From Bacteroidia bacterium (GTDB lineage Bacteria; Bacteroidota; Bacteroidia; Bacteroidales; VadinHA17): a DNA stretch of 39,888 nt. The stretch lies in assembly GCA_026391595.1 (NCBI GenBank), contig JAPLDY010000049.1, positions 1-39,888 on the forward strand, written 5' to 3'. Made by a program: the position numbers and the translations under genes. Shown one piece after another: positions 2,566 through 14,997 of the stretch. The notes under the pieces were generated by a model. It saw only the letters and a list, made by a program, of their open reading frames with translations. It was not told the origin of the DNA and ran no database searches. The number at the start of each line of letters is the position of its first letter. Position 1 is the stretch's first letter.

Positions 2566-4397
2566 ATGAAAAAAACTCTACTCATTATTTCAGCATTTGT
2601 TTTGTTTCTTTTTCTCATTCCTGGCCGGAGTGCAGTAGGACAGACAGTTGTACTTACCGAAAACTTTACAGGTTTCAGTAATAGTTCACATGCTTCACCC
2701 GGGTCAACTGATGTATCCGGAACATTGGATACAAAAACCACCATAGCTGGATGGACCGGCAGTAAGATTTATGAAGCCGGAGGAGAAATAAAACTTGGAA
2801 CTGCAAGTATCGCAGGATTCATTGTTACTCCATCACTTGACCTTTCGGGTAACGCAGGCAAATATGTTCTAAAATTCGATCTGCAGAAATATGGTACTGA
2901 TGCTACTCAAGTGCAGGTATACCTTGACAATGTCGCTGTAGGATCTCCTATTACTGCTCCCGACACTTATCAACTATCACCTTTGATGAGGGTGTACTCA
3001 CTAATACAGGTGCAGATATTACAAATAGTAATGTAGCCTCTCTTTTAACTCTTAAAAAGACAGATGCCTCGGGTGTTAGTGTTCCATATACGGCTACAAT
3101 CGATGCACTAAAGAAAGTTATTACTATAACTCCTTCATCACCATTAGATCTCTCGCAGGTATATTATCTGGCTGTAGCAGCAGTCGAAGACGGAAGCGGG
3201 AATGAAAATCCCGGATCAAATGTCACATTCACAACGCTTTCATCAACAGATCCTTCCATTACTATTACTAGCCCAGTTGGTGGTGAAACCTATTATGCAG
3301 CAGCTGCCACAAATCTTACCTGGACATCTGCAAATATTACCAATGTAAAGATTGAAGTATGGTCTGTAAATTTAGCCCGAACCTGGTCCTGGTCAGATAT
3401 TGTTGCCAGTACTGCAGCTTCAACTGGTACATTTAGCTTATCAGTTCCAGCTAATCTGACATATGGTACAGAATATAAGATCAAAATATCTGATGCCAGC
3501 AATTCGGCAATAAATTCTATAAGTGGCATCTTCACATGCATTCCTGTAGCAACGAGTGTTACTGATCTAAGGGCAAAATGCATTAAAGATGATATTGTTA
3601 AGCTAAGTTCAGAGGTCACACTGACTTATAAAAGAGCAACCGGTAACCAGAAATATGCTCAGGATGCCGATGCAGGCTTATTAATTTATGATCCATCGGC
3701 AATTTTAACAACTGTTCTTGCCGTAGGCGACAACTTTAAAGATCTGGAAGGTAAAGTAGATTTCTATAATGGTGTGTTTGAAATAGTCCCGAATAAAGCA
3801 ACTGTTGCCGTTATCTCATCAGGCAATACAGTTACAGCGCCCGAGATGACTCTTACTGATTACAATACAAATTACCTGAATTATGAATCAGAGCTGATAA
3901 AACTGACAGATGTTACTTTCCCCTCAGCAAATGGGATCCTGACTTTTGGCAGTGGTGCAGGGACCAATCTTACGGATGGAACTACAACTATTTCCTTCCG
4001 GACATTTACTACAGGCGAAAGCGATATCGTCGGTTCGATAATCCCTTCGGACCATATTAAATTGACCTGCATTGGAACATTCAATAATACAACAGTTCAG
4101 GTATATGGTCGTACCCTGGTGGATTTTATGATTCTCCCTACACGTATCGAGAAAACATCATCCACCGACAAGATCAGAATGTACCCTGTACCGGCAACTT
4201 CAGTGCTCAATATAAGCAACGTACCGAATCTAAGGTCAATAGAAATAATGGATGCTGCAGGCAAGGTGATCAAAACCATCAACACCAGCAGCGATGAGTT
4301 GATTCAAATACCTGTCGCCAGCCTGCGCCGCGGAATGTACATAATCAGGTTCAATACTGCCAATGGTAAAGTGGTGAAGAGGTTTGTGAAATCATAA
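2566..4397 (+). pseudogene. Secreted multidomain T9SS protein with OB-fold-like domain, frameshifted
   Basis: Two frames make one protein: 2566 to about 2970, then about 2970 to 4397. The first encodes a signal peptide ending near SAVGQ and a choice-of-anchor-like beta domain (ENFTGFSN, VTPSLDLSG, QVQVYLDNVAVG). The second encodes, in order: an SbsA-like Ig domain already under way (TITFDEGVL to VYYLAVAAVEDGSGN), a Kre9/Knh-like domain (SPVGGETYY...NLTWTS...YKIKISDASNSA), an OB-fold, DUF5689-like domain (about 3560-4130) and a T9SS sorting domain (RMYPVPATSVLNI to KVVKRFVKS). The end of domain one and the start of the Ig domain are missing at the junction, so more than one base has been lost. 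The OB-like domain has the same layout as those in the genes at 9435 and 10813, which links this protein to the nuclease cluster. It would be an extracellular or surface protein if intact. Confidence 0.75.
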
Positions 4398-4423
4398 CTT
4401 ATTTTCGGATATAATTAATATTA

Positions 4424-4584
4424 TTAACCGCAAAGTACACAAAGCTACTTCCCGGGCAACCGGGAAGTAGAAAAGACGCAAAGCACGCAAAGGAGAATTA
4501 CATATATTTAATACCTTTGCGCTCTTTGCGGGGATTTACCCGCCGGAACGTCAGTGAAGGCGGGCTTTGTGATCTTTGCGGTTA
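4424..4584. repeat. Large imperfect inverted repeat with nested hairpins
   Basis: This fills the gap between the T9SS gene and the EEP lipoprotein gene. The outer arms are TAACCGCAAAGTACACAAAG (from about 4425) and CTTTGTGATCTTTGCGGTTA (4565-4584), complementary at about 18 of 20 bases. Inside lie an 11-bp hairpin with a 4-base loop (4445-4455/4460-4470), a second set of facing CGCAAAG/CTTTGCG motifs and a 6-bp hairpin (4539-4544/4559-4564). It may act as a terminator for the upstream gene, or be a dispersed palindromic element. Confidence 0.7.
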
Positions 4585-4602
4585 CTTTTTTTGAAACATT
4601 TT

Positions 4603-5508
4603 ATGAAGAAATCACGTATAATATTAGTTATACTCTTTGCATTATTCATACTCCCCACCGGATGCCGTAAAACTCCTGAACCTCCCTCTCCGGAAGATTC
4701 AGACATATTCACTGCATGCATCCCATTCCCGGGAACGGACCAGAGCCTCGATATCGTAACATTCAACACCGAAACATTCCCTATAAGCGGCTATACCTCG
4801 GTAATTGCTGTCGCCAACCTGCTGAAAACAATAGATGCCGATGTCTACGCCCTCCAGGAAGTGGCATCCGAAGCGGGATTTAACCAGCTTCTCGATCTGA
4901 TGCCCGGATATATGGGATTATTCTACCTCATCAATAACTCGGACTGGAATCTTGCTTATATATATAAGGTATCGGAGATCTCGATTTACAATGCATCATC
5001 CAGATTATTGTTCACTGATTCGGAAAACTTCCCCCGGCCGCCCTTTGAGATTAAAATTCACCACACTCCTACCAATCTTGATCTTTATCTGATAAATAAC
5101 CATCTCAAGTGCTGCGGCGGTTCAGAAAACGAAACCAGCCGGAGAATTGCCTCGGAGATGCTCAAGAATTATATTGATAATTCAAGACCCAACGATGCAG
5201 TTATAGTTCTTGGCGACCTTAACGACGACATAACAGGCATAGGTACTGGTGATAATCCTTTCCTGAATTTCATAAACGATCCTGAAGATTTCAGGTTCGC
5301 CGACATGGAGATAGCCAAAGGAAGCCAGCTCTGGTGGTCGTACCCCTCCTACCCCAGCCATATCGATCATATCCTGATAACAAATGAATTGTTCAGCAAG
5401 GCTGACACCACATTGGTTTACAAAGCAGCCCCATGCTATTCCGATTATTCAATATATATTTCCGATCACCGTCCTGTGGGAATAAAGCTGACTTCAGGCG
5501 GTAGCTGA
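4603..5508 (+). CDS. Endonuclease/exonuclease/phosphatase (EEP) family lipoprotein
   Basis: The EEP fold is a metal-dependent phosphodiesterase/phosphatase family (DNase I-like). The 301-residue product has a lipoprotein signal (lipobox PTGC, Cys21), so it is anchored in the envelope. The catalytic set is present: Asn in VTFNTE (near 55), LQE (84-86), NNHL (165-168), GDLND (204-208), SHIDHI and the final SDH (287-289). It lacks the SusC/D partners expected of a glycan locus. A frame extends upstream to a TTG at 4576, but that lies inside the inverted repeat; ATG at 4603 starts the signal peptide directly and is preferred. The gene is convergent with a second EEP gene 3 bases away. The substrate is probably a nucleic acid or nucleotide given the neighbours, but EEP proteins also include lipid phosphatases. 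Confidence 0.88.
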   Translation: MKKSRIILVILFALFILPTGCRKTPEPPSPEDSDIFTACIPFPGTDQSLDIVTFNTETFPISGYTSVIAVANLLKTIDADVYALQEVASEAGFNQLLDLMPGYMGLFYLINNSDWNLAYIYKVSEISIYNASSRLLFTDSENFPRPPFEIKIHHTPTNLDLYLINNHLKCCGGSENETSRRIASEMLKNYIDNSRPNDAVIVLGDLNDDITGIGTGDNPFLNFINDPEDFRFADMEIAKGSQLWWSYPSYPSHIDHILITNELFSKADTTLVYKAAPCYSDYSIYISDHRPVGIKLTSGGS

Positions 5509-5511
5509 GAA

Positions 5512-6552
5512 TTATTTGGTCTGATCCTTAACAATAAGAACATAAACCGGGAAGTGGTCGCTGAAGCCTCCCTGGAATACCGTTCCGACCATTGTTCTCA
5601 GAGGATAACCTTTGTACTGACCATCCTTTTGAACCAGGAACTGGCTGTTGAAAACCCTGGCTTTATAGAATTTGTATGTCGAGTAATCTTTCCCAACCAG
5701 TGCAGGCGTAATAACTATCTGGTCGAAAAGATTTAGTCCGTCGCGGTAATATAGCGAGCCGATACCTTTTTTATATAGCGGATACATGCAATTGAACATC
5801 TCACCTTCCTTCATGTTTTCAGGATCTGCTGCTGCTTTTAGATGCTTGCGGAGGCTCTCGTTGGAAGGATCGTCGTTAAGGTCGCCCATGACAAATATTT
5901 TAGCATCCCTGTCAATAGCCAGAAGGCTGTCTACCAGATGTCGTGTAAGGTCGGCCGCAGCATTACGCCTTGGTCTGGTGGTCATCTCACCGCTGCTCCG
6001 CGAAGGCCAGTGATTAACTATAAAATGCATCGGCTCTCCATCATATATCCCTGAAACCACCAGCTGATCACGTGTAAAAATCCTCTCTCCTTTCTCATCA
6101 GATATTTTGAGTTCGTTGCTTGTAGAAGATGTAACACGGAAAAAACGTGCCCGATAAATAAGTGCTACATCCACACCTCTGACATCGGGTGAATCGTAAT
6201 GAACTATCTGGTAACCTGATTCTTTAAGAACAGGTTGTGAAATAAGGTCCTCCAGCACCTGCCTGTTCTCTATTTCCACAACACCAAGAACAGCAGGACC
6301 ACCTTTCCAACCATCATCTTCTCCTATGCGAGAGATTGCAAGAGCCATGTTATTCAATTTATGAAGATACTTATCGCCGGTCCATCTGTCAAGTCCTGCC
6401 GCTGTGAATTCCTCATCAAGAACTCCTTCGGTATCGATCGTGTCGAACAGGTTTTCCAGATTATAGAAAGCTATAAGACCTGCCTTATAAGACTGTGCAT
6501 TAAGTCCGATAAAAGAGAATAATACCAGTGAAATAATCAGCAATTTCTTCAT
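5512..6552 (-). CDS. Secreted endonuclease/exonuclease/phosphatase family protein
   Basis: This second EEP protein has about 346 residues and a cleavable signal peptide ending near LNAQ, so it is exported to the periplasm or beyond. It shows the Bacteroidota nuclease-type motifs AFYNLENLFD (28-37), VEIEN (92-96), VNHWPSR (179-185), GDLNDDP (223-229) and a C-terminal SDHFPV. Arginines in RPRRNAA follow the NHWPSR motif, as in extracellular nucleases of this group. Two adjacent ATGs (6555, 6552) precede KKLL; the longer frame from 6603 adds a non-signal sequence and is not favoured. It is transcribed divergently from the TonB receptor, with 119 bases between them, so the two could share control. 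Only about 20 percent of residues seem shared with the neighbouring EEP lipoprotein by eye, so this is not a recent duplicate. Confidence 0.9.
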   Translation of the reverse strand: MKKLLIISLVLFSFIGLNAQSYKAGLIAFYNLENLFDTIDTEGVLDEEFTAAGLDRWTGDKYLHKLNNMALAISRIGEDDGWKGGPAVLGVVEIENRQVLEDLISQPVLKESGYQIVHYDSPDVRGVDVALIYRARFFRVTSSTSNELKISDEKGERIFTRDQLVVSGIYDGEPMHFIVNHWPSRSSGEMTTRPRRNAAADLTRHLVDSLLAIDRDAKIFVMGDLNDDPSNESLRKHLKAAADPENMKEGEMFNCMYPLYKKGIGSLYYRDGLNLFDQIVITPALVGKDYSTYKFYKARVFNSQFLVQKDGQYKGYPLRTMVGTVFQGGFSDHFPVYVLIVKDQTK

Positions 6553-6671
6553 CATGTTCTTATTGATGCGTGTAAAGTTAATACTTAGATGTATTGCTTC
6601 CAAATATGATGCCGGTTCTCAGAAATCTTTAATAATTATAGTATATTTATCAAGACTTTTTAAAATCTTTT

Positions 6672-9389
6672 ATGAGATCTAACAAACTGATTTTCTTATT
6701 TTTAGTCTTTGTCTTTTGCTCAATTACCACTATTGCCCAGCAGGGTGCATTAAAAGGGAAGGTTATTGATCAGGCTAAACAGACCGGTCTCGCTGGCACC
6801 GAATTAACCGACGCCACCGGCAAGGTCATAGCAGTCACTATTAAAGACGGAACATTCCTTGTGAATCTTCCTGAAGGAAGAAATATCCTTTATTTTAATC
6901 TCGCAGATTTCGACCAGGCGGTTATTGAAGTCGATGTGAAATCCGGAGAGACCACTGATGCAGGTACCATTGCCCTAAAAAATTCTGCCGGATCGATGCA
7001 GGATCTTTTCACCATCAACATAAGTGAAGGCGTTGAGGATGATGGTTTTGAGACCCAGTCGGTACAGGGCGTCCTGAGTTCAACAGCTGATGTTTTCCTG
7101 AGCACTGCAGCTTATACTTTTGGTCCGGTAATGTTCCGGACCAGGGGATATGATGCCAACTATACCAACGTGAGCCTCAATGGATTCGTTATGAACGATA
7201 TAGAATCCGGCTCACCATACTGGTCAAACTGGGGAGGCCTTAACGATGTGATGCGTAGTGCAATGGTATCTTCAGGCCCGGAACCTATTGGTTTCCTTTT
7301 TGAACCTGTAGGCGGTGCAACACGTATAAATACAAAAGCTTCAGAATACAGGTCCGGAATAAAGGCGGTCTATTCTTTATCAAACCGCACTTACGGCAAC
7401 AGGGTTATGCTGACTTATTCAACCGGACTAATGAAAAACAACTGGGCATTCACCGGGAGTCTGTCACGGCGCTGGAGCAAGCATGGTTACGAGAAGGGTA
7501 CTTTTTACAATGCCAACTCATTCTTTCTTTCTGCCGAGAAGAAATTCAACAGCCGGCACAGCCTTAATCTGACTGCTCTCGATGCTATTTATGAACGTGG
7601 TGTGGCAGGAGGGACAACACAGGAGATCTATGATCTAATGAAAGACAACTACTATAATCCTTACTGGGGTTATCAGAACGATGAAGTCCGCAATGCCAGG
7701 GTACGCAGCAACAACAAGCCTCTCTTTACCCTTGGCCATTTCTGGAATCCCTCGGAGAAGCTCGACATTCAGACAACAGTCGGTTACTGGTTCGGAAAAA
7801 GCGGTTATACAGCACTGAACTGGTATGATCCTCTCGATCCGAAACCCGATTATTACAAGAAACTCCCTTCTTACTATACCAATCCGGCGGATTCGGTACG
7901 TATCGCTCAGGCCTGGGTAAACGATCCTGCTGAAAGCCATCTTGACTGGGACAGTTATTATTATGCCAACCGCAAGAATCTCGCATATATCCCTGATGCC
8001 GAGGGGATCAATGGCAATGATGTGTCAGGGAACAGATCGAAGTACATTGTCGAAGACAGACGTAACGACCTTTCACAGTTTCAGTTTAACACAAGAGCCT
8101 CATGGGACATAAGTGAAAAAATAAATCTGACCGGAGGATTGCTTGTGGATATTTACAGAGGTCATAATTTCAATGTTGTCAAAGACCTTCTGGGAGGTGA
8201 TTTCTGGCTCGACATCGATAAGTTTGCAGAAACCGACCTTCCGAGTGATCCCAATGCCTTGCAGAGCGACCTTAACAATCCGAATAATCTCGTTAAAGAA
8301 GGTGATATTTTCGGGAATAATTATTATGCATTCCAGCGTGGTACAACACTCTGGGGAACAGGCAAATACAGTAATAAACGCTATTCAATATTTCTTAGCG
8401 GAAATGCAAGGTTTACCTCCATGTGGAGAGAAGGGCTCATGAAAAAAGGGCTCTTCCCTGACAACTCTTTCGGCGACTCAGAAAAGATGGATTACCTGAC
8501 ATGGGGAGTAAAAGCAGGAGGCGACTACAGGATAACAGGAAGGCATCTGATTACAGTCAATACTCTAATTGCAACAAATCCGCCGCTCTTGCGTAATTCA
8601 TTCCTTTCACCACGAACCCGCAATTCAGTTACTCCTGGTCTTAAGGAAGAGACGATCCTTTCAGCAGACGCCAGCTATATACTCAGATCACCGACAGTAA
8701 AAGGAAGGATAACAGGTTATTATACACGTTTCATGAACCAGACAGAGGTTACGAGTTTCTATCACGACGACCTCATGACACTGGTTAATTATGCCATGAC
8801 AAATATCGATAAGGAGAATTATGGTCTTGAACTTGGTGCAGAGGTTACGGTAACCACAGGCTTGAATATAAATGCTGCAGCGGCTCTTGGACAGTACCTG
8901 TGGGTTAATAATCCGAATATAACCATAACCCAGGACAACAATAATAAGATCCTCAGGAATGAAGAAGTCTGGATAAAGTATTTCAGACAGAGCGGAACAC
9001 CGCAGATAGCACTTTCACTCGGTGTTGAATATAATTCCACGAAGTTCTGGTGGGCCAGTATAACAGGCAGTTATTACGATAATATCTATCTCGATTTCAA
9101 TCCTGTTACACGTACTAAGGATGAGACCGGCTATTATCCCTACTGGGATCTCCAGGTTAAGGAATCACCGGGTTTCCTGCTCGATATCTTCTTTGGAAAA
9201 TCCTGGAAGATCAAAAATATCTATGTTAACATCAGCGCCAATATCAGTAATGTCCTGAATAATAAGAGCCTATCTACAGGCGGATATGAACAGTATCGCT
9301 ATGATGCCGCCAGACCTGATCTTTTCGACCCGAAGATCTACTATTATAATGGATTCAACTACTTTATCAACTTCAGCATAAGAATGTAG
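6672..9389 (+). CDS. TonB-dependent outer-membrane receptor (SusC-like layout, no SusD partner)
   Basis: The 905-residue protein has a signal peptide (to about residue 22, TIAQ). A carboxypeptidase-regulatory-like beta domain follows (GALKGKVIDQAKQTGLAGTE, about 25-105). Next comes a plug region (FRTRGYDANYTNVSLNGFVMND, about 155-180) and a long beta-barrel rich in Tyr/Asn/Trp strands ending in NYFINFSIRM, an aromatic outer-membrane-type C-terminus. It should carry out active uptake across the outer membrane powered by TonB-ExbBD. It leads a tight operon with two surface lipoproteins and a secreted endonuclease (gaps of 45, 16 and 3 bases). The absence of SusD and glycoside hydrolases, and the presence of three nuclease-type genes, suggest oligonucleotides as cargo. 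That is inference; no ligand-binding residue can be read directly. Confidence 0.88.
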   Translation: MRSNKLIFLFLVFVFCSITTIAQQGALKGKVIDQAKQTGLAGTELTDATGKVIAVTIKDGTFLVNLPEGRNILYFNLADFDQAVIEVDVKSGETTDAGTIALKNSAGSMQDLFTINISEGVEDDGFETQSVQGVLSSTADVFLSTAAYTFGPVMFRTRGYDANYTNVSLNGFVMNDIESGSPYWSNWGGLNDVMRSAMVSSGPEPIGFLFEPVGGATRINTKASEYRSGIKAVYSLSNRTYGNRVMLTYSTGLMKNNWAFTGSLSRRWSKHGYEKGTFYNANSFFLSAEKKFNSRHSLNLTALDAIYERGVAGGTTQEIYDLMKDNYYNPYWGYQNDEVRNARVRSNNKPLFTLGHFWNPSEKLDIQTTVGYWFGKSGYTALNWYDPLDPKPDYYKKLPSYYTNPADSVRIAQAWVNDPAESHLDWDSYYYANRKNLAYIPDAEGINGNDVSGNRSKYIVEDRRNDLSQFQFNTRASWDISEKINLTGGLLVDIYRGHNFNVVKDLLGGDFWLDIDKFAETDLPSDPNALQSDLNNPNNLVKEGDIFGNNYYAFQRGTTLWGTGKYSNKRYSIFLSGNARFTSMWREGLMKKGLFPDNSFGDSEKMDYLTWGVKAGGDYRITGRHLITVNTLIATNPPLLRNSFLSPRTRNSVTPGLKEETILSADASYILRSPTVKGRITGYYTRFMNQTEVTSFYHDDLMTLVNYAMTNIDKENYGLELGAEVTVTTGLNINAAAALGQYLWVNNPNITITQDNNNKILRNEEVWIKYFRQSGTPQIALSLGVEYNSTKFWWASITGSYYDNIYLDFNPVTRTKDETGYYPYWDLQVKESPGFLLDIFFGKSWKIKNIYVNISANISNVLNNKSLSTGGYEQYRYDAARPDLFDPKIYYYNGFNYFINFSIRM

Positions 9390-9434
9390 AAAGAAGTTCG
9401 GAGTTTGAAGTGACAAAACCTTAGAGTTAAAAGA

Positions 9435-10796
9435 ATGACTATGGAAATATCAAAATATATAACAGGATTGCTAATACTGATCGTTGTAACTTTCTCCTGT
9501 ATCGACAATAATGAAGATGATCCGCCGGTGGTATCGTTCAGGCCTGATACAATTATTACTGTCAGGATGGTTAAGGACCTTTATGCCGGGCAGCTGGCAA
9601 TATCGGATTATACCCTCCGCCTGCCGGTTGAGATTACCCATGGCTGGGCAATAAGGGGCATAATTACAGCCAGTGACAAGAAGGACGGAAATCTCTATAA
9701 GGAAGCTTTTGTCCAGGATGCCACAGGCGGGATAAGGCTGATATTCGATTCTACCAGCGGCCTCTATATTGGTGATTCGGTAATTGTGAACCTGAAAGGT
9801 CTTTATATAGGCGACTATGGCAATTTCTGGCAGGTGGGAGGTGTTCCTTATAATGATGCCGGTAGTATCAGAGTCTCGGGAATGAATATGGATAAACAGA
9901 TTCTAAAGACATCTGTCAATAATTCCACACGTCCTGATACGGTCACTATTGCCCAGGCAAAGAGCGCCTCATACCTCGGAAAACTGGTAACACTAAAGAA
10001 TGTCCAGTTTACGGATGATGCTGTCAATAAAACTTATGCTGATATTGTATCGGATCCTCCTGTTACTGTAAACAGGGATCTTATGGATTGCAATAAGAAC
10101 AAGATAATTGTCCGCACTTCGGGTTATTCTGCATTCGCAGGTGATACTATTACCGACAAAAATGGGACAATGACAGGCATTATTACCATCTTCAGCTCTG
10201 ACTATCAATTCATTATCAGGGATTTTAATGAAGTGAAGCTGACAAAAGACAGATGCATGCCAGGAGTGCCTGATCTTGGTACACCTGTTGAGACAATAAG
10301 CCAGAATTTCAGTTCATTCTCAAATAATGCGGAAATACTGGTCAGCGGATGGCAGAACATTGCACAGTATGGCGACAGAACCTGGCAGGCAAAATATTTT
10401 TCCGGGAACACCTACGCCCAATCCACAGGTTATAATTCAAACCTCTCCTCGATGGTGTCATGGCTGATTACGCGTCCTGTGACAATTTCAACGCAGAAAG
10501 TACTTTCCTTTCAGACAGCTAAAGCTTACTGGACACATACGGGAACACATCTGCCATTTGAGATCTTTTATTCCACGAACTATACCGGAAAGAATCTTAT
10601 AACAGCATCATGGACCCATATTGACGCTGTTCTTGCCGAGAAGAATGATATTGATAATACATTCATCAATTCCGGAAATATAAATCTTCCCGTGGAATCA
10701 GGTAAGTCGTGTGTTATAGCCTTTAAATATACCGGAAGCAATACTGAAAGTACCAGCTATAGAATTGATAATATATTAATTACAACGGCTAAATAA
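9435..10796 (+). CDS. DUF5689-like OB-fold lipoprotein with choice-of-anchor J domain
   Basis: The 453-residue product has a lipobox TFSC (Cys22) and an acidic stretch right after it (IDNNEDDPP), typical of Bacteroidota surface-exposed lipoproteins. Residues about 40-280 match the DUF5689 pattern: WAIRGIITASDK, then FVQDATGGIRLIF, then GDSVIVNLKG, and a second lobe (GKLVTLKNVQF...GTMTGIITIF..YQFIIRD). This layout resembles OB-fold nucleic-acid-binding domains. Residues about 285-450 form a choice-of-anchor J jelly-roll (NFSSFSN...GWQNI, ending YRIDNILI). The gene sits where a SusD gene would normally be, directly after the receptor, and probably encodes its surface binding partner. Start ATG is 9435 or the in-frame ATG at 9441; both keep the signal. 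DUF5689 has no settled function to my knowledge, so DNA binding is inferred. Confidence 0.85.
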   Translation: MTMEISKYITGLLILIVVTFSCIDNNEDDPPVVSFRPDTIITVRMVKDLYAGQLAISDYTLRLPVEITHGWAIRGIITASDKKDGNLYKEAFVQDATGGIRLIFDSTSGLYIGDSVIVNLKGLYIGDYGNFWQVGGVPYNDAGSIRVSGMNMDKQILKTSVNNSTRPDTVTIAQAKSASYLGKLVTLKNVQFTDDAVNKTYADIVSDPPVTVNRDLMDCNKNKIIVRTSGYSAFAGDTITDKNGTMTGIITIFSSDYQFIIRDFNEVKLTKDRCMPGVPDLGTPVETISQNFSSFSNNAEILVSGWQNIAQYGDRTWQAKYFSGNTYAQSTGYNSNLSSMVSWLITRPVTISTQKVLSFQTAKAYWTHTGTHLPFEIFYSTNYTGKNLITASWTHIDAVLAEKNDIDNTFINSGNINLPVESGKSCVIAFKYTGSNTESTSYRIDNILITTAK

Positions 10797-10812
10797 CGGA
10801 AACGTAAATTCT

Positions 10813-12045
10813 ATGAAAATAAAAGCATACCTAAGTGGGATCATTTTTTCAGCAATAGTGCTGTTTGTTACATGCGAAAGGGAACCTGTGATGCCACCTG
10901 ATCCCGTGATCGATCATATTACCATCGCCGAGCTCAGAGCCATGTACAACAGCGGGATGGTTACGATTGATACTAATGTTTATATCCAGGGGATAATCAC
11001 CCTGACGCCTGAGCTTGGCAACGTGCCTGATTTTATTGCCTATATCCAGGACAGCACTGCCGGAATATGCCTTTCTGTTACCGGAACTAACAGCTTTGCA
11101 ATGAATTCAGAAGTCAAGATCCTGTGCAGAGGTATTGGATTCACACTATATAACGGGCTCCTTCAGTTTGGTGGCATTGATCTGACCCCAACAGTAAAAC
11201 AAGTTGAAGTAATTAACCTGACAGCCGGAATACCTGAACCGGTAAATGTAACAATTAATGAACTCCTTGATGGTAAGCATCAGGCTGAATATGTTTCACT
11301 TAGTGGTGTCCAGTTCATGGCTTCAGGTACATTCTCAGGAACAAAAGTCCTTACTGATTGTGATTCTGAAATTGATGTTTATACCCGATCTGCTGCAACT
11401 TTTTCAGGAACGACAATGCCAACCGGAAACGGAATCCTAAAGGGTGTTGCCTCTGTCTTCAACAGTACGCAGATACTTCTCCGCGATCCTTCTGACCTCA
11501 ACATGGTAGGTGCCTTGTGCGGAATACCTTCAGTTATATATTTATCACAGGACTATACAACACTCGGTAGCGGAATTACAGTAAATGCCCTCCCTGGATG
11601 GCTTGCTTATCTGCAGGCAGGAACTGTCTACTGGAAAGGATATATTTTAAGCAGCAATCATATCGCCAGGACTACGGCATTTGGTTCAGGACAAGCATCA
11701 GTAATAACATGGATGATCGCTCCCCAGATCGACTTATCCACCGCAAAAAAGCCATACATAAGCTTCGAAAGCTGCGATGGTTATGATAATGGGGCAACAC
11801 TTAAATTGTTTGTTTCTACAGATTATACAGGATCAGCTACCCCATGGACCAGTACCTGGACTGAGCTCTCATTTACAAGGCCTCCCGTGACTGCATCAGG
11901 ATACAGTGCTTTTGTCTCATCAGGTAAAGTAGACCTATCTGCTTATATTGGAAGCACAATATATGTCGCATGGGTTTATTCCGGTGGAGTATCAACAAAG
12001 ACAACCACCTGGGAAATGGATAATGTACTTGTTGCCGAAAAATAG
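10813..12045 (+). CDS. Second DUF5689-like OB-fold lipoprotein with choice-of-anchor J domain
   Basis: This is a paralogue of the preceding gene with the same domain order in 410 residues: lipobox FVTC (Cys21), OB-fold-like lobes (VYIQGIITLTPE, FIAYIQDSTAGICLSV, NSEVKILCRGIG; then AEYVSLSGVQF and GNGILKGVASVFNSTQILLRDPSDL), and a C-terminal choice-of-anchor J domain (LSQDYTTLGSG, ending TTWEMDNVLVAEK). Sequence between the paralogues has drifted strongly while the layout is kept, so the duplication is old. The gene lies 16 bases after the first copy and 3 bases before the endonuclease, clearly in one operon. Like its neighbour it is probably exposed on the cell surface and may hold nucleic acid for the receptor or the nuclease. 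The specific role is not established. Confidence 0.84.
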   Translation: MKIKAYLSGIIFSAIVLFVTCEREPVMPPDPVIDHITIAELRAMYNSGMVTIDTNVYIQGIITLTPELGNVPDFIAYIQDSTAGICLSVTGTNSFAMNSEVKILCRGIGFTLYNGLLQFGGIDLTPTVKQVEVINLTAGIPEPVNVTINELLDGKHQAEYVSLSGVQFMASGTFSGTKVLTDCDSEIDVYTRSAATFSGTTMPTGNGILKGVASVFNSTQILLRDPSDLNMVGALCGIPSVIYLSQDYTTLGSGITVNALPGWLAYLQAGTVYWKGYILSSNHIARTTAFGSGQASVITWMIAPQIDLSTAKKPYISFESCDGYDNGATLKLFVSTDYTGSATPWTSTWTELSFTRPPVTASGYSAFVSSGKVDLSAYIGSTIYVAWVYSGGVSTKTTTWEMDNVLVAEK

Positions 12046-12048
12046 TGA

Positions 12049-13125
12049 ATGGCAGCAAGCAGATTAAAATATTACCTTCTGCTCATTATTATCCTGCAGG
12101 TATCACTTATTCTGTCAGGACAACCGGCAGGTTACTATGATTCAGCAGCCGGACTTACAGGAACGGCCCTTCAGCAGGCCCTGCATGACATCATTGATAA
12201 TCATACTTCTGTATCATATGCGGACTTGTGGACAGATTTCCAGACTACAGATAAAAAATCTGATGGAAATGTATGGGATATGTATTCCGATATCCCGTCG
12301 GGAACTCCGGCATACACATTTATCTTCATAACAAATCAGTGTGGGAACTATAACAGTGAAGCAGATTGTTACAACAGGGAACACTCATTTCCAAAGAGTT
12401 GGTTTGGTGGGGATGTTGAACCAATGTATACTGATCTGTTTCATCTTTACCCGACTGACGGTTATGTAAACGGGAAGCGTGATAATTTCCCATTTGGTAT
12501 AACATCTTCACCTGCATGGACATCTACAAATGGAAGTAAATTGGGGCCAAACTCATATTCAGGATACACAGGAACTGTCTTTGAGCCGATCAATGCCTAC
12601 AAAGGCGATTTCGCACGATCTTTTTTTTACATGGCAGTACGGTACTTTGGGGAAGACGCTTCCTGGCCCGGGAGCGAAATGGTTACTGGATCGCAGCCAA
12701 AGAGCTGGGCATTGAAAATGCTTTTGGAATGGGATCTGTCTGACCCGGTAAGTCAGAAGGAGACAGACCGTAACAATGCTGTTTACCTGATCCAGGGAAA
12801 CCGTAATCCTTTCATTGATAACACATCATATGCCAGCCAGATATGGGGTTCGCAGGTTGATGTAAAAGATATTACCCAAGAACAGAGTATGATAAGGATT
12901 TGGCCAAATCCTGCAGGTGAAACAGCAACAATTGAATTATCTGGTCAGCTAAACGATACCTATAATATTAAGATAATAAATGTCTCCGGGAAGACCATTA
13001 TGAACAGATCGGTTTCAGGGAATCCTGTTTCGCTGGATGTCACAACTTTTAAGACCGGTTATTATATAGTAATTGTCTCGGGTAATACCGGGGTTCTTTC
13101 AGTACCACTGGTTATATCGCACTGA
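12049..13125 (+). CDS. Secreted endonuclease I family nuclease with T9SS sorting domain
   Basis: Endonuclease I (EndA-like, His-Me finger) enzymes cut DNA, and some RNA, without sequence preference. The 358-residue product has a signal peptide (to about LILSGQ). The catalytic domain shows CYNREHSFPKSWF, with the metal/active-site His in REHSF, followed by TDLFHLYPTDGYVNGKRDNFPFG and a conserved C-terminal QGNRNPFID. Residues about 283-358 form a T9SS type A sorting domain (IRIWPNPAGETATIEL ... LKTGYY-like TGYYIVIVSGN), so the enzyme is exported across the outer membrane and probably attached to the surface. ATG at 12049 comes 3 bases after the previous stop, so translation is likely coupled. 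It is the best-supported nuclease of the cluster and the main reason for reading the cluster as acting on nucleic acids. Confidence 0.92.
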   Translation: MAASRLKYYLLLIIILQVSLILSGQPAGYYDSAAGLTGTALQQALHDIIDNHTSVSYADLWTDFQTTDKKSDGNVWDMYSDIPSGTPAYTFIFITNQCGNYNSEADCYNREHSFPKSWFGGDVEPMYTDLFHLYPTDGYVNGKRDNFPFGITSSPAWTSTNGSKLGPNSYSGYTGTVFEPINAYKGDFARSFFYMAVRYFGEDASWPGSEMVTGSQPKSWALKMLLEWDLSDPVSQKETDRNNAVYLIQGNRNPFIDNTSYASQIWGSQVDVKDITQEQSMIRIWPNPAGETATIELSGQLNDTYNIKIINVSGKTIMNRSVSGNPVSLDVTTFKTGYYIVIVSGNTGVLSVPLVISH

Positions 13126-13161
13126 TTATAAATAATTATATTTGCAGCCTTGAACAGATCC

Positions 13162-13205
13162 GTCTTCGCTAAAGCTTTGGACTTCGTCCGGCGAAGTCGG
13201 AGGAC
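13162..13205. repeat. Palindromic repeat upstream of tRNA-Ser(CGA)
   Basis: This segment runs from GTCTTCGCTAAAGCTTTGG to CGGCGAAGTCGGAGGAC. The reverse complement of the repeat at 24065-24112, upstream of tRNA-Ser(GCU), follows the same path: a TTCGC-AAAGCTT arm, then CTTCGTCCGGCGAA, then TCGGAGGAC. It also shares its core with the repeat at 270-287. In both tRNA cases the repeat ends 4 bases before a copy of the tRNA 5' sequence GGAGAGATGG. It is a REP-like dispersed family with no protein nearby to explain its spread. Confidence 0.65.
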
Positions 13206-13209
13206 AAAT

Positions 13210-13290
13210 GGAGAGATGGTCCCGCTACGCTAAAGCTTCGCGGGATAGACGCCGTGGTCAATGCGGCTTAGAGTATTAAAGGAGAGATGG
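13210..13290 (+). repeat. Direct duplication of the tRNA 5' end flanking a 61-bp insert
   Basis: GGAGAGATGG occurs at 13210-13219 and again at 13281-13290, where it is the true start of tRNA-Ser(CGA). The segment between contains a palindrome, TCCCGC (13220-13225) facing GCGGGA (13240-13245), around a CTAAAGCTT core like that of the neighbouring repeat family. The first copy does not continue into a foldable tRNA. This looks like a short palindromic insertion with a 10-bp target duplication, or the stub of a former second tRNA gene. Confidence 0.5.
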
Positions 13291-13369
13291 CAGAGCGGTC
13301 GAATGCGGCGGTCTCGAAAACCGTTGTTCGCCTTCCGGCGAACCGGGGGTTCGAATCCCCCTCTCTCCG
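13281..13369 (+). tRNA. tRNA-Ser(CGA)
   Basis: The 89-base class II tRNA folds fully. The acceptor stem is GGAGAGA (13281-13287) with TCTCTCC (13362-13368) and discriminator G at 13369. The anticodon stem GCGGT/ACCGT encloses CTCGAAA, giving anticodon CGA for serine UCG codons. A long variable arm (GTTCGCC-ttc-CGGCGAAC type) and a T arm GGGGG-TTCGAAT-CCCCC complete it. The 3' CCA is not encoded. The mature 3' end coincides with the first base of the nested-palindrome element that follows. Confidence 0.96.
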
Positions 13370-13497
13370 CAACGCCAAAATAAATCCCGACGATACCGTC
13401 GGGATTGTTTGTTTTATCGAAGCCCCGTTAAAAGCTTGCTTTTAAAAGGGGCTGAGGGAAAATAAACAAAACCCGTCAGGGTTTATTTTGGCGTTGC
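13369..13497 (+). repeat. Nested-palindrome element A on the 3' end of tRNA-Ser(CGA)
   Basis: The outer arms are perfect 16-bp inverted repeats (13369-13384 GCAACGCCAAAATAAA and 13482-13497). Inside, in order, come a perfect 9-bp hairpin (13384-13392/13397-13405), an arm TTGTTTGTTTT paired with AAAATAAACAA further on (one mismatch), a central hairpin AGCCCC-TTAAAAGC/GCTTTTAA-GGGGCT, and a small hairpin AACCC-gtca-GGGTT (13470-13483). Element B at 23849-23974 has the same plan. The first arm begins at the tRNA discriminator base. It could be a terminator, a structured RNA processed off the tRNA precursor, or a small non-autonomous mobile element aimed at tRNA ends. Confidence 0.8.
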
Positions 13498-13511
13498 AGG
13501 AGCCACCATCA

Positions 13512-13545
13512 GGGATCATGACCGAACGCAGTGAGGTCATAATCC
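13512..13545 (+). repeat. 34-base hairpin repeat, copy 1
   Basis: The stem GGATCATGACC faces GGTCATAATCC (one mismatch) around the loop GAACGCAGTGA. A second copy lies on the reverse strand at 23645-23678, identical at 32 of 34 positions and with a perfect 11-bp stem. Both copies lie beyond a nested-palindrome element beside a tRNA-Ser gene, so they travel with that structure. Between 13546 and 13635 there are only further short hairpins, such as CCCCGG-ttgca-CCGGGG (13596-13612), and no gene. Confidence 0.7.
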
Positions 13546-13635
13546 TCATTATATTACGCCCCTTCAGGGCTTAAGATCATATAGTTACACCTTACCCCCG
13601 GTTGCACCGGGGAATTCTGAGCGTTTGAAGTGACT

Positions 13636-13663
13636 GAGGGCTCCGGAAGGGGCCTCCTTTTTT
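13636..13663 (+). terminator. Possible intrinsic terminator downstream of the tRNA region
   Basis: GAGGGCTCC-ggaa-GGGGCCTC (13636-13656), an imperfect stem with a tetraloop, is followed by a run of six T. It would end transcription coming from the endonuclease operon or the tRNA before the permease gene at 13744. The stem contains mismatches, so the call is moderate. Confidence 0.45.
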
Positions 13664-13743
13664 AAACATTCTCTCAGACCGGCTAGGTAGTTAAGAATAG
13701 CATGCTATCTTCGCATATTAACAGTAACAAATAATCCAAATCT

Positions 13744-14997
13744 ATGGGACTTAAAGGCCGGCTTATCATAATGAACTTCCTTCAGTTCTTCATCTGGGGA
13801 TCATGGCTGCTCACAATTGGAGCATATTGGTTTCAGAACAAAAATTGGTCGGGGACAGATTTTGGAGCCATCTTTTCAACAATGGGTCTGGCTTCGCTAT
13901 TCATGCCTGCCATTGCCGGTATCATTGCAGACAGGTGGGTCAACACCGAGAAGCTATATGGCATCTTTCACATTGCAGGAGCCATCCTCCTCTCACTGAT
14001 TCCGTCCATCAATAATCCTGACATATTCTTCTGGGTGCTGTTGCTAACGATGATGTTCTATATGCCCACACTGGCCCTGGCAATCACTGTGGCGTACAGT
14101 TCTATGAAGAACAGCGGAATGGACATCATAAAGGATTACCCGCCGGTAAGGGTTTGGGGAACAATAGGTTTCATCGTGGCTCTATGGGTTGTGAGCCTTC
14201 TGGGGTTTGAAACCTCACCCATGCAGTTCTATGTTGCAGCTGCTTCCTCTCTGCTACTTGGATTATATGCCTTTACCCTCCCAAAGTGTCCGCCACTGGG
14301 CAGGGGACACAAGAAGAATCTGGCAGAGGAGCTTGGGCTCAATGCGTTCAGACTCTTCAAAAACACTAAGATGGCTCTATTCTTTATCTTCGCCATGCTG
14401 CTGGGAGGCGCTCTGCAGCTGACCAACGCCTACGGCGACACCTTCCTGCACGATTTCGCCGACATACCTAGATTCAAAGACCTTGTCGCTGTCAGGTACC
14501 CCGCAATAGTAATGTCAGTCTCACAGATCTCCGAAACCCTCTTTATTCTTACCATTCCCTTTTTCCTGAAAAAGTTCGGAATAAAGAAGGTGATGCTGAT
14601 GAGCATGGTGGCATGGATTCTACGTTTCGGTTTATTCGGGTTCGGGAATCCGGCTGAAGGGCTTTGGATGATCATCCTCTCATGCATCATTTATGGTATG
14701 GCTTTTGATTTTTTCAACATTTCCGGTTCTCTCTTCGTGGAGACCCAGTGCACTCCTGACATACGTGCCAGCGCACAGGGTCTGTTCATGATGATGACTA
14801 ACGGCTTCGGTGCTTTCCTGGGCAGCAGGATAAGCGGGATCATGATTGACAAATACTTTACCCTGGAAAACGGGACATTCTACTGGAAGGGGATCTGGTT
14901 CGCCTTTGCAGGTTATGCCCTGGTAGTGGCAATCCTTTTCATCCTTTTCTTCAGGCATAAGCACGTGCCAGAGGAGAGGGTAAATATTAGTCACTGA
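13744..14997 (+). CDS. NupG-like nucleoside:H+ symporter, major facilitator superfamily
   Basis: The 417-residue polytopic protein has about 12 hydrophobic segments. The N-terminus (KGRLIIMNFLQFFIWGSWLLTIGAYWF) and the segment IFSTMGLASLFMPAIAGIIADRW closely follow the nucleoside:H+ symporter group (NupG/XapB-like; Nuc_H_symport family), as do VRVWGTIGFIVALWV and the C-terminal GAFLGSRISGIMIDKYF. It should import nucleosides across the inner membrane. That fits as the last step of the nuclease cluster that ends 620 bases upstream, although the tRNA and a possible terminator separate them, so it is probably transcribed on its own. A TATCTTCG -7-like box at about 13706 could serve it. Some Bacteroidota proteins of this type are annotated only as MFS transporters, so the substrate is not proven. 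Confidence 0.85.
   Translation: MGLKGRLIIMNFLQFFIWGSWLLTIGAYWFQNKNWSGTDFGAIFSTMGLASLFMPAIAGIIADRWVNTEKLYGIFHIAGAILLSLIPSINNPDIFFWVLLLTMMFYMPTLALAITVAYSSMKNSGMDIIKDYPPVRVWGTIGFIVALWVVSLLGFETSPMQFYVAAASSLLLGLYAFTLPKCPPLGRGHKKNLAEELGLNAFRLFKNTKMALFFIFAMLLGGALQLTNAYGDTFLHDFADIPRFKDLVAVRYPAIVMSVSQISETLFILTIPFFLKKFGIKKVMLMSMVAWILRFGLFGFGNPAEGLWMIILSCIIYGMAFDFFNISGSLFVETQCTPDIRASAQGLFMMMTNGFGAFLGSRISGIMIDKYFTLENGTFYWKGIWFAFAGYALVVAILFILFFRHKHVPEERVNISH

Follow-up and report, generated by a model that had tools for sequence, protein, structure and literature searches.

What passes through a TonB-dependent receptor that is encoded beside nuclease-family genes and lipoproteins with domains resembling the oligonucleotide/oligosaccharide-binding (OB) fold? 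The question is raised by contig JAPLDY010000049.1 of an uncultured Bacteroidia bacterium (assembly GCA_026391595.1), a stretch of 39,888 nucleotides that we call the window (contig G000:C221 of a 3.64 Mb genome; labels in G denote genomes, those in L named loci or stretches). A first-pass annotation had read positions 2566-14997 as a locus for scavenging extracellular nucleic acids. The genes that it listed there, namely a receptor, two DUF5689 lipoproteins, an endonuclease I, two endonuclease/exonuclease/phosphatase (EEP) family genes and a NupG-like carrier, are confirmed by profile matches and predicted structure. Judged from gene order, co-inheritance, homology and structure models, the core of the locus is probably a Bacteroidota outer-membrane DNA-uptake system, a reading to which we assign a probability of about 0.68. 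The proposal that nucleic acids are captured at the surface and imported through the receptor gains support from homology to a pair of Riemerella anatipestifer transformation proteins, from hints of an OB fold and from nuclease linkage.

The receptor, a predicted outer-membrane DNA channel and homologue of RA0C_RS04915 (6672..9389, + strand), opens a run of four same-strand genes (6672-13125) separated by gaps of 45, 16 and 3 bases. It is followed by LIP1, a predicted DNA-binding lipoprotein with DUF5689 (OB-like) and choice-of-anchor J domains that is homologous to RA0C_RS04920 (9435..10796, +; PF18942, E = 1.2e-52), by a second lipoprotein with the same domains, LIP2 (10813..12045, +; PF18942, E = 1.4e-31; NF052645, 104 bits over the C-terminal part), and by an endonuclease I with a type A sorting tail of the type IX secretion system (T9SS) (12049..13125, +; PF04231, E = 1.3e-80; PF18962, E = 7e-11). 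The T9SS component SprA is encoded in the same genome. Divergent from the receptor lies EEP3 (5512..6603, −; PF19580, E = 9.7e-124), whose signal peptide, recognized by eye, would place the protein in the periplasm or at the surface, and beyond it EEP1, a second EEP-family protein with a lipobox seen by eye (4576..5508, +; PF03372, E = 1.1e-11). Both EEP genes are therefore upstream of the receptor, and not on either side of it as first annotated. EEP1 and endonuclease I are accessory, lineage-specific members of the set.

A precedent for the receptor and its lipoprotein comes from the duck bacterium R. anatipestifer. In a study that screened transposon mutants for defects in natural transformation (Huang et al. 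2021, PMC8459023), the available text describes RA0C_RS04915 as an outer-membrane protein with a carboxypeptidase-like domain, adjoining RA0C_RS04920, which combines DUF5689 and DUF5017 with choice-of-anchor J. According to the same text, markerless deletion of either gene lowered transformation below detection, so that both are essential, and the authors proposed that RS04920 binds DNA and RS04915 passes it across the outer membrane; the protein that converts double-stranded into single-stranded DNA was left unidentified in their model. RS04910 is mentioned there as an upstream gene with unchanged transcription, in a predicted operon, and is absent from the lists of tested mutants in that text. 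The homologues are called widespread in Bacteroidetes, yet those of RS04915 are said to have been found in Flavobacteriaceae alone. Among the open-licence papers searched, the two locus tags were found in this one only, and in the parts of that literature available, natural transformation is the sole phenotype found for the homologous pair. The earlier statement that no described system holds the full set had overlooked this pair.

The window shares with the pair a receptor with a carboxypeptidase-like domain, below threshold in the window, followed after 45 bases by a lipoprotein with DUF5689 and DUF5017/choice-of-anchor J, as well as an EEP gene at the upstream RS04910 position; it differs by its second lipoprotein, endonuclease I and EEP1. 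The correspondence can be followed gene by gene in L162, a locus from genus g163, which reads CTP synthase-like, RecA, PolIV-like, SdhB-like, SdhA, SdhC-like, ComEC, 145 aa, 542 aa, EEP3, receptor, lipoprotein (frames of at least 90 aa; names in "-like" were given by eye, whereas RecA, SdhA, the lipoprotein and a ComEC domain were confirmed by models). Counted in steps of five from RecA as 04870, ComEC falls on 04895, EEP3 on 04910, the receptor on 04915 and the lipoprotein on 04920, the spacing of the published R. anatipestifer ATCC11845 tags 04870/04895/04915/04920. EEP3 is divergent from the receptor in L162, in contrast to the predicted operon given for RS04910 in the available text of PMC8459023. 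In a receptor tree built by a quick method (120 rows), the window and L162-L165 fall together among 111 rows that are split with support 100 from 9 paralogue rows. By analogy, the window's distant homologues would likewise carry DNA.

The comEC gene lies near the pair in L162, whereas the window's genome has it on another contig. Across g163, ComEC is found ~7 kb from the lipoprotein in 3 of 5 genomes, one of them the source of L162, ~15 kb away in the fourth and on another contig in the fifth. The window's genome encodes both ComEC and DprA. As a discriminating partner ComEC was rejected, since it occurs in 64 of the 65 genomes searched, receptor or not. Cas1/Cas2-like and Cas9-like genes, identified by eye, stand just downstream of the pair in L162 (18490-19717) and L163 (18210-20000), where predicted DNA import would sit beside DNA defence in R. 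anatipestifer-type genomes. The gene order and these genes, the Cas9-like one in L163, are the grounds on which L162 (from G384) is taken to be R. anatipestifer.

At the level of domains, the receptor has no match in NCBIfam, and in Pfam only a sub-threshold carboxypeptidase-like domain and a match of 0.06 to a model of no relation; the structure predicted for it can be aligned with complete TonB-dependent transporters and has the plug-and-barrel fold. LIP1 matches NF052645, the M949_1556 family, near full length with 199 bits; as the cut-off is 475, it is a relative and not a member of that subfamily. The model is named for an R. anatipestifer gene, and 20 of the 80 genomes in one family score above its cut-off. 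In LIP1, DUF5017 reaches 28.4 bits (cut-off 28.8) and choice-of-anchor J exceeds its own cut-off; the predicted model has a mean confidence (pLDDT) of 91. PF01336, the OB-fold nucleic-acid-binding domain, was matched at E up to 1 by 8 of 39 lipoprotein family members (best 1.1e-6), and a Foldseek comparison of the LIP1 model with Teb1 AB returned E = 2.3e-4 with low template modelling (TM) scores of 0.17/0.34. The VIA rows for the lipoprotein (50 among the matches listed) concern the C-terminal domain, for which a sequence search of the PDB matched only a carbohydrate-binding domain protein; the same search returned nothing for EEP3 or the receptor family. EEP3 carries the motifs NLEN, NHW, GDLND and SDH, which we take to be catalytic. 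The endonuclease I domain of the window protein (PF04231, 271 bits, cut-off 25) resembles solved endonuclease I structures (E = 1e-6); the catalytic domain is that of the EndA/Vvn family, from which the protein differs by its T9SS sorting tail.

How constant the arrangement is was assessed in a phylum sample of 296 genomes, with the receptor family called at a best row of at least 438 bits (one gene being split into 438 + 405) and the next group scoring no higher than 274 bits. The family occurs in 48 of these genomes, and the lipoprotein adjoins the receptor in 44; the other four comprise two with no lipoprotein match at 1e-20 and two with the lipoprotein elsewhere. EEP3 adjoins the receptor in 31 of the 42 receptor genomes with listed EEP rows, the 6 without such a row being left out. 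Among the named loci, which are the best 80 of at least 586 confirmed receptor matches, the lipoprotein lies within two genes of the receptor in 70 of the 71 that extend far enough downstream; EEP3 does so in 50 of the 70 that extend far enough upstream, and in each of these 50 it is divergent. The receptor was found in records named Bacteroidales, Saprospiraceae, Marinifilum, Porphyromonas uenonis and others; the P. uenonis record (L121) holds the receptor with two lipoproteins, and its contig begins just before the receptor. Recurrent outer neighbours in the scanned named loci are housekeeping-like, namely an amidohydrolase, a family 2 glycosyltransferase and a MORN-repeat protein.

Variants of this order were also seen. 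In G269 and G277, EEP3 adjoins the receptor in the same orientation, and no match to the lipoprotein was found at 1e-20. L033 (8198-15848, from G032) has EEP3, receptor and lipoprotein on a single strand, with an M3 peptidase homologue after them; this gene also flanks the block in the window's genus. The nine paralogue rows of the tree form a second receptor family of ~820-935 aa (L034-L040, the second copy in L080, and G022:C38), followed in several cases by a different kind of lipoprotein, which is 380-620 aa long and in some cases has CDPM at the lipobox; it is possibly a sister transport system.

Endonuclease I behaves differently from this core. It is present in 8 of the 80 named loci, with 9 genes in total, none of them more than 3.6 kb from the receptor, although flanks extend to 10 kb where contigs are long enough. 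Four of these loci fall in the clade of the window itself (one being the same genome as G022), while L055, L056, L080 and L110 stand on other branches of the receptor tree, and G142 (L145) adds another case. The 4 occurrences among 74 loci outside the window's clade compare with 0.39 expected from endonuclease I match counts and genome sizes of the receptor genomes (Poisson P = 7e-4, relatedness ignored). Beside the receptor, the enzyme is fused to DUF5017 in L055 (5684-7516, T9SS tail above cut-off) and to DUF5689 in L056 (14167-16386, T9SS tail just below cut-off). Genome-wide, 33 of 48 receptor genomes encode endonuclease I against 68 of 248 others, a comparison confounded by relatedness. 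Among 41 order relatives it was found in 7 of 10 with a close receptor, in 2 of 5 whose sole receptor matches are remote or paralogous and in 0 of 26 with neither; in those relatives outside the window's genus that were compared by position, the contig stretch with the receptor does not include it. Since only 2 of the 48 receptor genomes have endonuclease I at 10 kb or less from the receptor, among the matches listed (above ~83 bits), it was rejected as a core component. The first-pass annotation had counted receptor homologues mainly without nuclease genes as evidence against its proposal. For endonuclease I this is largely the picture obtained, whereas for the EEP gene, adjacent in most loci and genomes, the opposite holds.

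Within the window's genus the six genes form a cassette. G010 and G022 share the window's arrangement, in which EEP1, EEP3, receptor, LIP1, LIP2 and endonuclease I are bracketed by the M3 peptidase on one side and an anchor gene on the other; the receptor sequence of L046, a record named Bacteroidales bacterium, is the same as that of G022. Sixteen further same-genus stretches around the anchor gene were compared, three of them only about 3 kb long, and none holds any block gene. Because the block genes, EEP1 included, are all absent from the 7 of these sites that hold both peptidase and anchor, the block from EEP1 to endonuclease I seems to be gained or lost as a unit. Endonuclease I occurs in 3 of 25 genus members, in all 3 inside the block, and the G004 contig stops within the receptor.

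These data can be combined into a working model. The lipoproteins would bind extracellular DNA through their N-terminal OB-like half and hand it to the TonB-dependent receptor, which would draw it through its barrel into the periplasm. EEP3 might then trim or convert the DNA, and ComEC would move single strands into the cytoplasm for DprA and RecA. In the window's lineage, T9SS-exported endonuclease I and EEP1 may be additions that cleave long DNA at the cell surface. We infer the direction and energy of transport, as well as the roles of EEP3 and endonuclease I; the imported DNA may serve transformation, food or both, as these uses are not mutually exclusive. A broader proposal, which we advance tentatively and at somewhat less than even odds, is that Bacteroidota share a TonB-powered DNA importer independent of type IV pili (T4P) and composed of EEP nuclease, receptor and OB-fold lipoprotein, in which EEP3 is the missing nuclease that supplies ComEC with its strand, and that window-like lineages turned this importer into a DNA-feeding locus by means of exported nucleases.

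Several observations weigh against DNA uptake. The proteins of the window are distant from those of L162, with near full-length identities of 41% for EEP3, 32% for the receptor and 28% for LIP1, and LIP1 stays far below the M949_1556 cut-off. Transporters within one family can switch substrate, and EEP enzymes may be phosphatases instead of nucleases. None of the eight PF01336 matches is to the lipoprotein of the window itself. EEP3 is not beside the receptor in 20 of the 70 named loci and lies elsewhere in 11 of the 42 phylum genomes, and the near-universal ComEC contributes nothing specific. Of 25 genus members, only 4 have a close receptor and one more has a remote match alone (5e-12), and such patchiness is odd for core competence. 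In addition, F. johnsoniae has all homologues and was reported as non-competent under the conditions tried, according to the available text of PMC8459023.

What the DNA is for separates DNA uptake in general from a sub-case of it, in which the same importer serves nutrition and DNA is eaten for phosphorus, nitrogen and bases. We regard this sub-case as a serious possibility with odds well short of even. Endonuclease I and EEP1 come and go together with the receptor block, cutting at the surface would be expected to harm transformation with long DNA, and the patchy presence in the genus fits a nutrient niche. However, the block contains no nucleotidase, nucleoside carrier or SusD, NupG being excluded, and transformation is the one phenotype that was found for the homologues, so that the nutritional purpose first annotated is not supported. 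It is unlikely that the receptor imports another polymer or metabolite, with the nucleases merely nearby and the jelly-roll (choice-of-anchor J) domain binding glycan or protein: the scanned proteins include no glycoside hydrolase or SusD, and the OB-fold hints, the nuclease fusions and a homologous pair essential for transformation would be left aside. The last explanation, in which surface nucleases destroy foreign or host DNA in defence or biofilms and the receptor has another purpose, appears very improbable. It can draw on the resemblance of a T9SS fragment in the window to the N-terminus of the AS87_RS02955 family (41 bits, cut-off 260), named for an R. anatipestifer T9SS protein that the available text of a review lists as a broad-range nuclease involved in virulence. 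It leaves unexplained, however, the constant TonB-dependent transporter and lipoprotein and their role in transformation.

The RS04915/RS04920 pair of R. anatipestifer has been described before; no description of the EEP partner, of the nuclease fusions, of the six-gene cassette or of the phylum counts was found in the available parts of the open-licence literature. How Bacteroidota carry DNA over the outer membrane is still an open question, for which the core of EEP gene, receptor and lipoprotein names genes to delete. For P. gingivalis, the available text of a 2024 paper (PMC11532111) calls the uptake mechanism unclear, type II and IV secretion systems not having been identified and a T4P-like conjugation pilus not being involved. 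EEP3 is a candidate for the nuclease left unidentified in the R. anatipestifer model, and the locus would connect the import of DNA with exported nucleases in a phylum that matters for gene exchange and the recycling of environmental DNA.

The likeness to a polysaccharide utilization locus (PUL), by which the region was first described, is one of layout. Receptor, lipoprotein and exported enzyme follow one another as in SusCD loci, whereas the enzymes are of nuclease families, and no SusD, SusC/RagA model or glycoside hydrolase was matched among the proteins scanned in 2566-14997. The PUL reading was rejected on these grounds, and the initial remark that glycoside hydrolases and SusD are missing holds for these proteins. 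The BtuB-BtuG vitamin B12 importer of Bacteroides thetaiotaomicron differs from the window in its substrate, as compared with the one predicted here; to our knowledge, its BtuG-type lipoprotein is unrelated to the window lipoproteins.

The NupG-family carrier (13744-14997), separated from the endonuclease I gene by a tRNA-Ser, had been proposed as the final, nucleoside uptake step. No NupG homologue was found in the flanks of the 80 receptor loci, many of them truncated, or in stretches of 20 kb from G010 and G022. One is present at the corresponding site of G012 (L168), a relative without the receptor block, so NupG lies outside the unit, and its role as last step was rejected.

Upstream of EEP1, the further T9SS protein of the first-pass annotation (2566..4397, +) shows a sorting tail and half a DUF5689 domain, in a fragment at 3774-4397, whereas an intact gene is not present: frame 1 ends at a stop at 3036, and another frame is open to 4397. 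Its N-terminal part is the one that resembles the T9SS DNase family AS87_RS02955. Membership of this broken protein in the unit is doubtful, and a relative of ~260 aa persists at 3 of the genus sites without the block. The neighbouring M3-type peptidase (316-2275, −) is likewise frame-broken, and in relatives it forms one frame of ~700 aa; the breaks in the two genes reflect either assembly error or decay.

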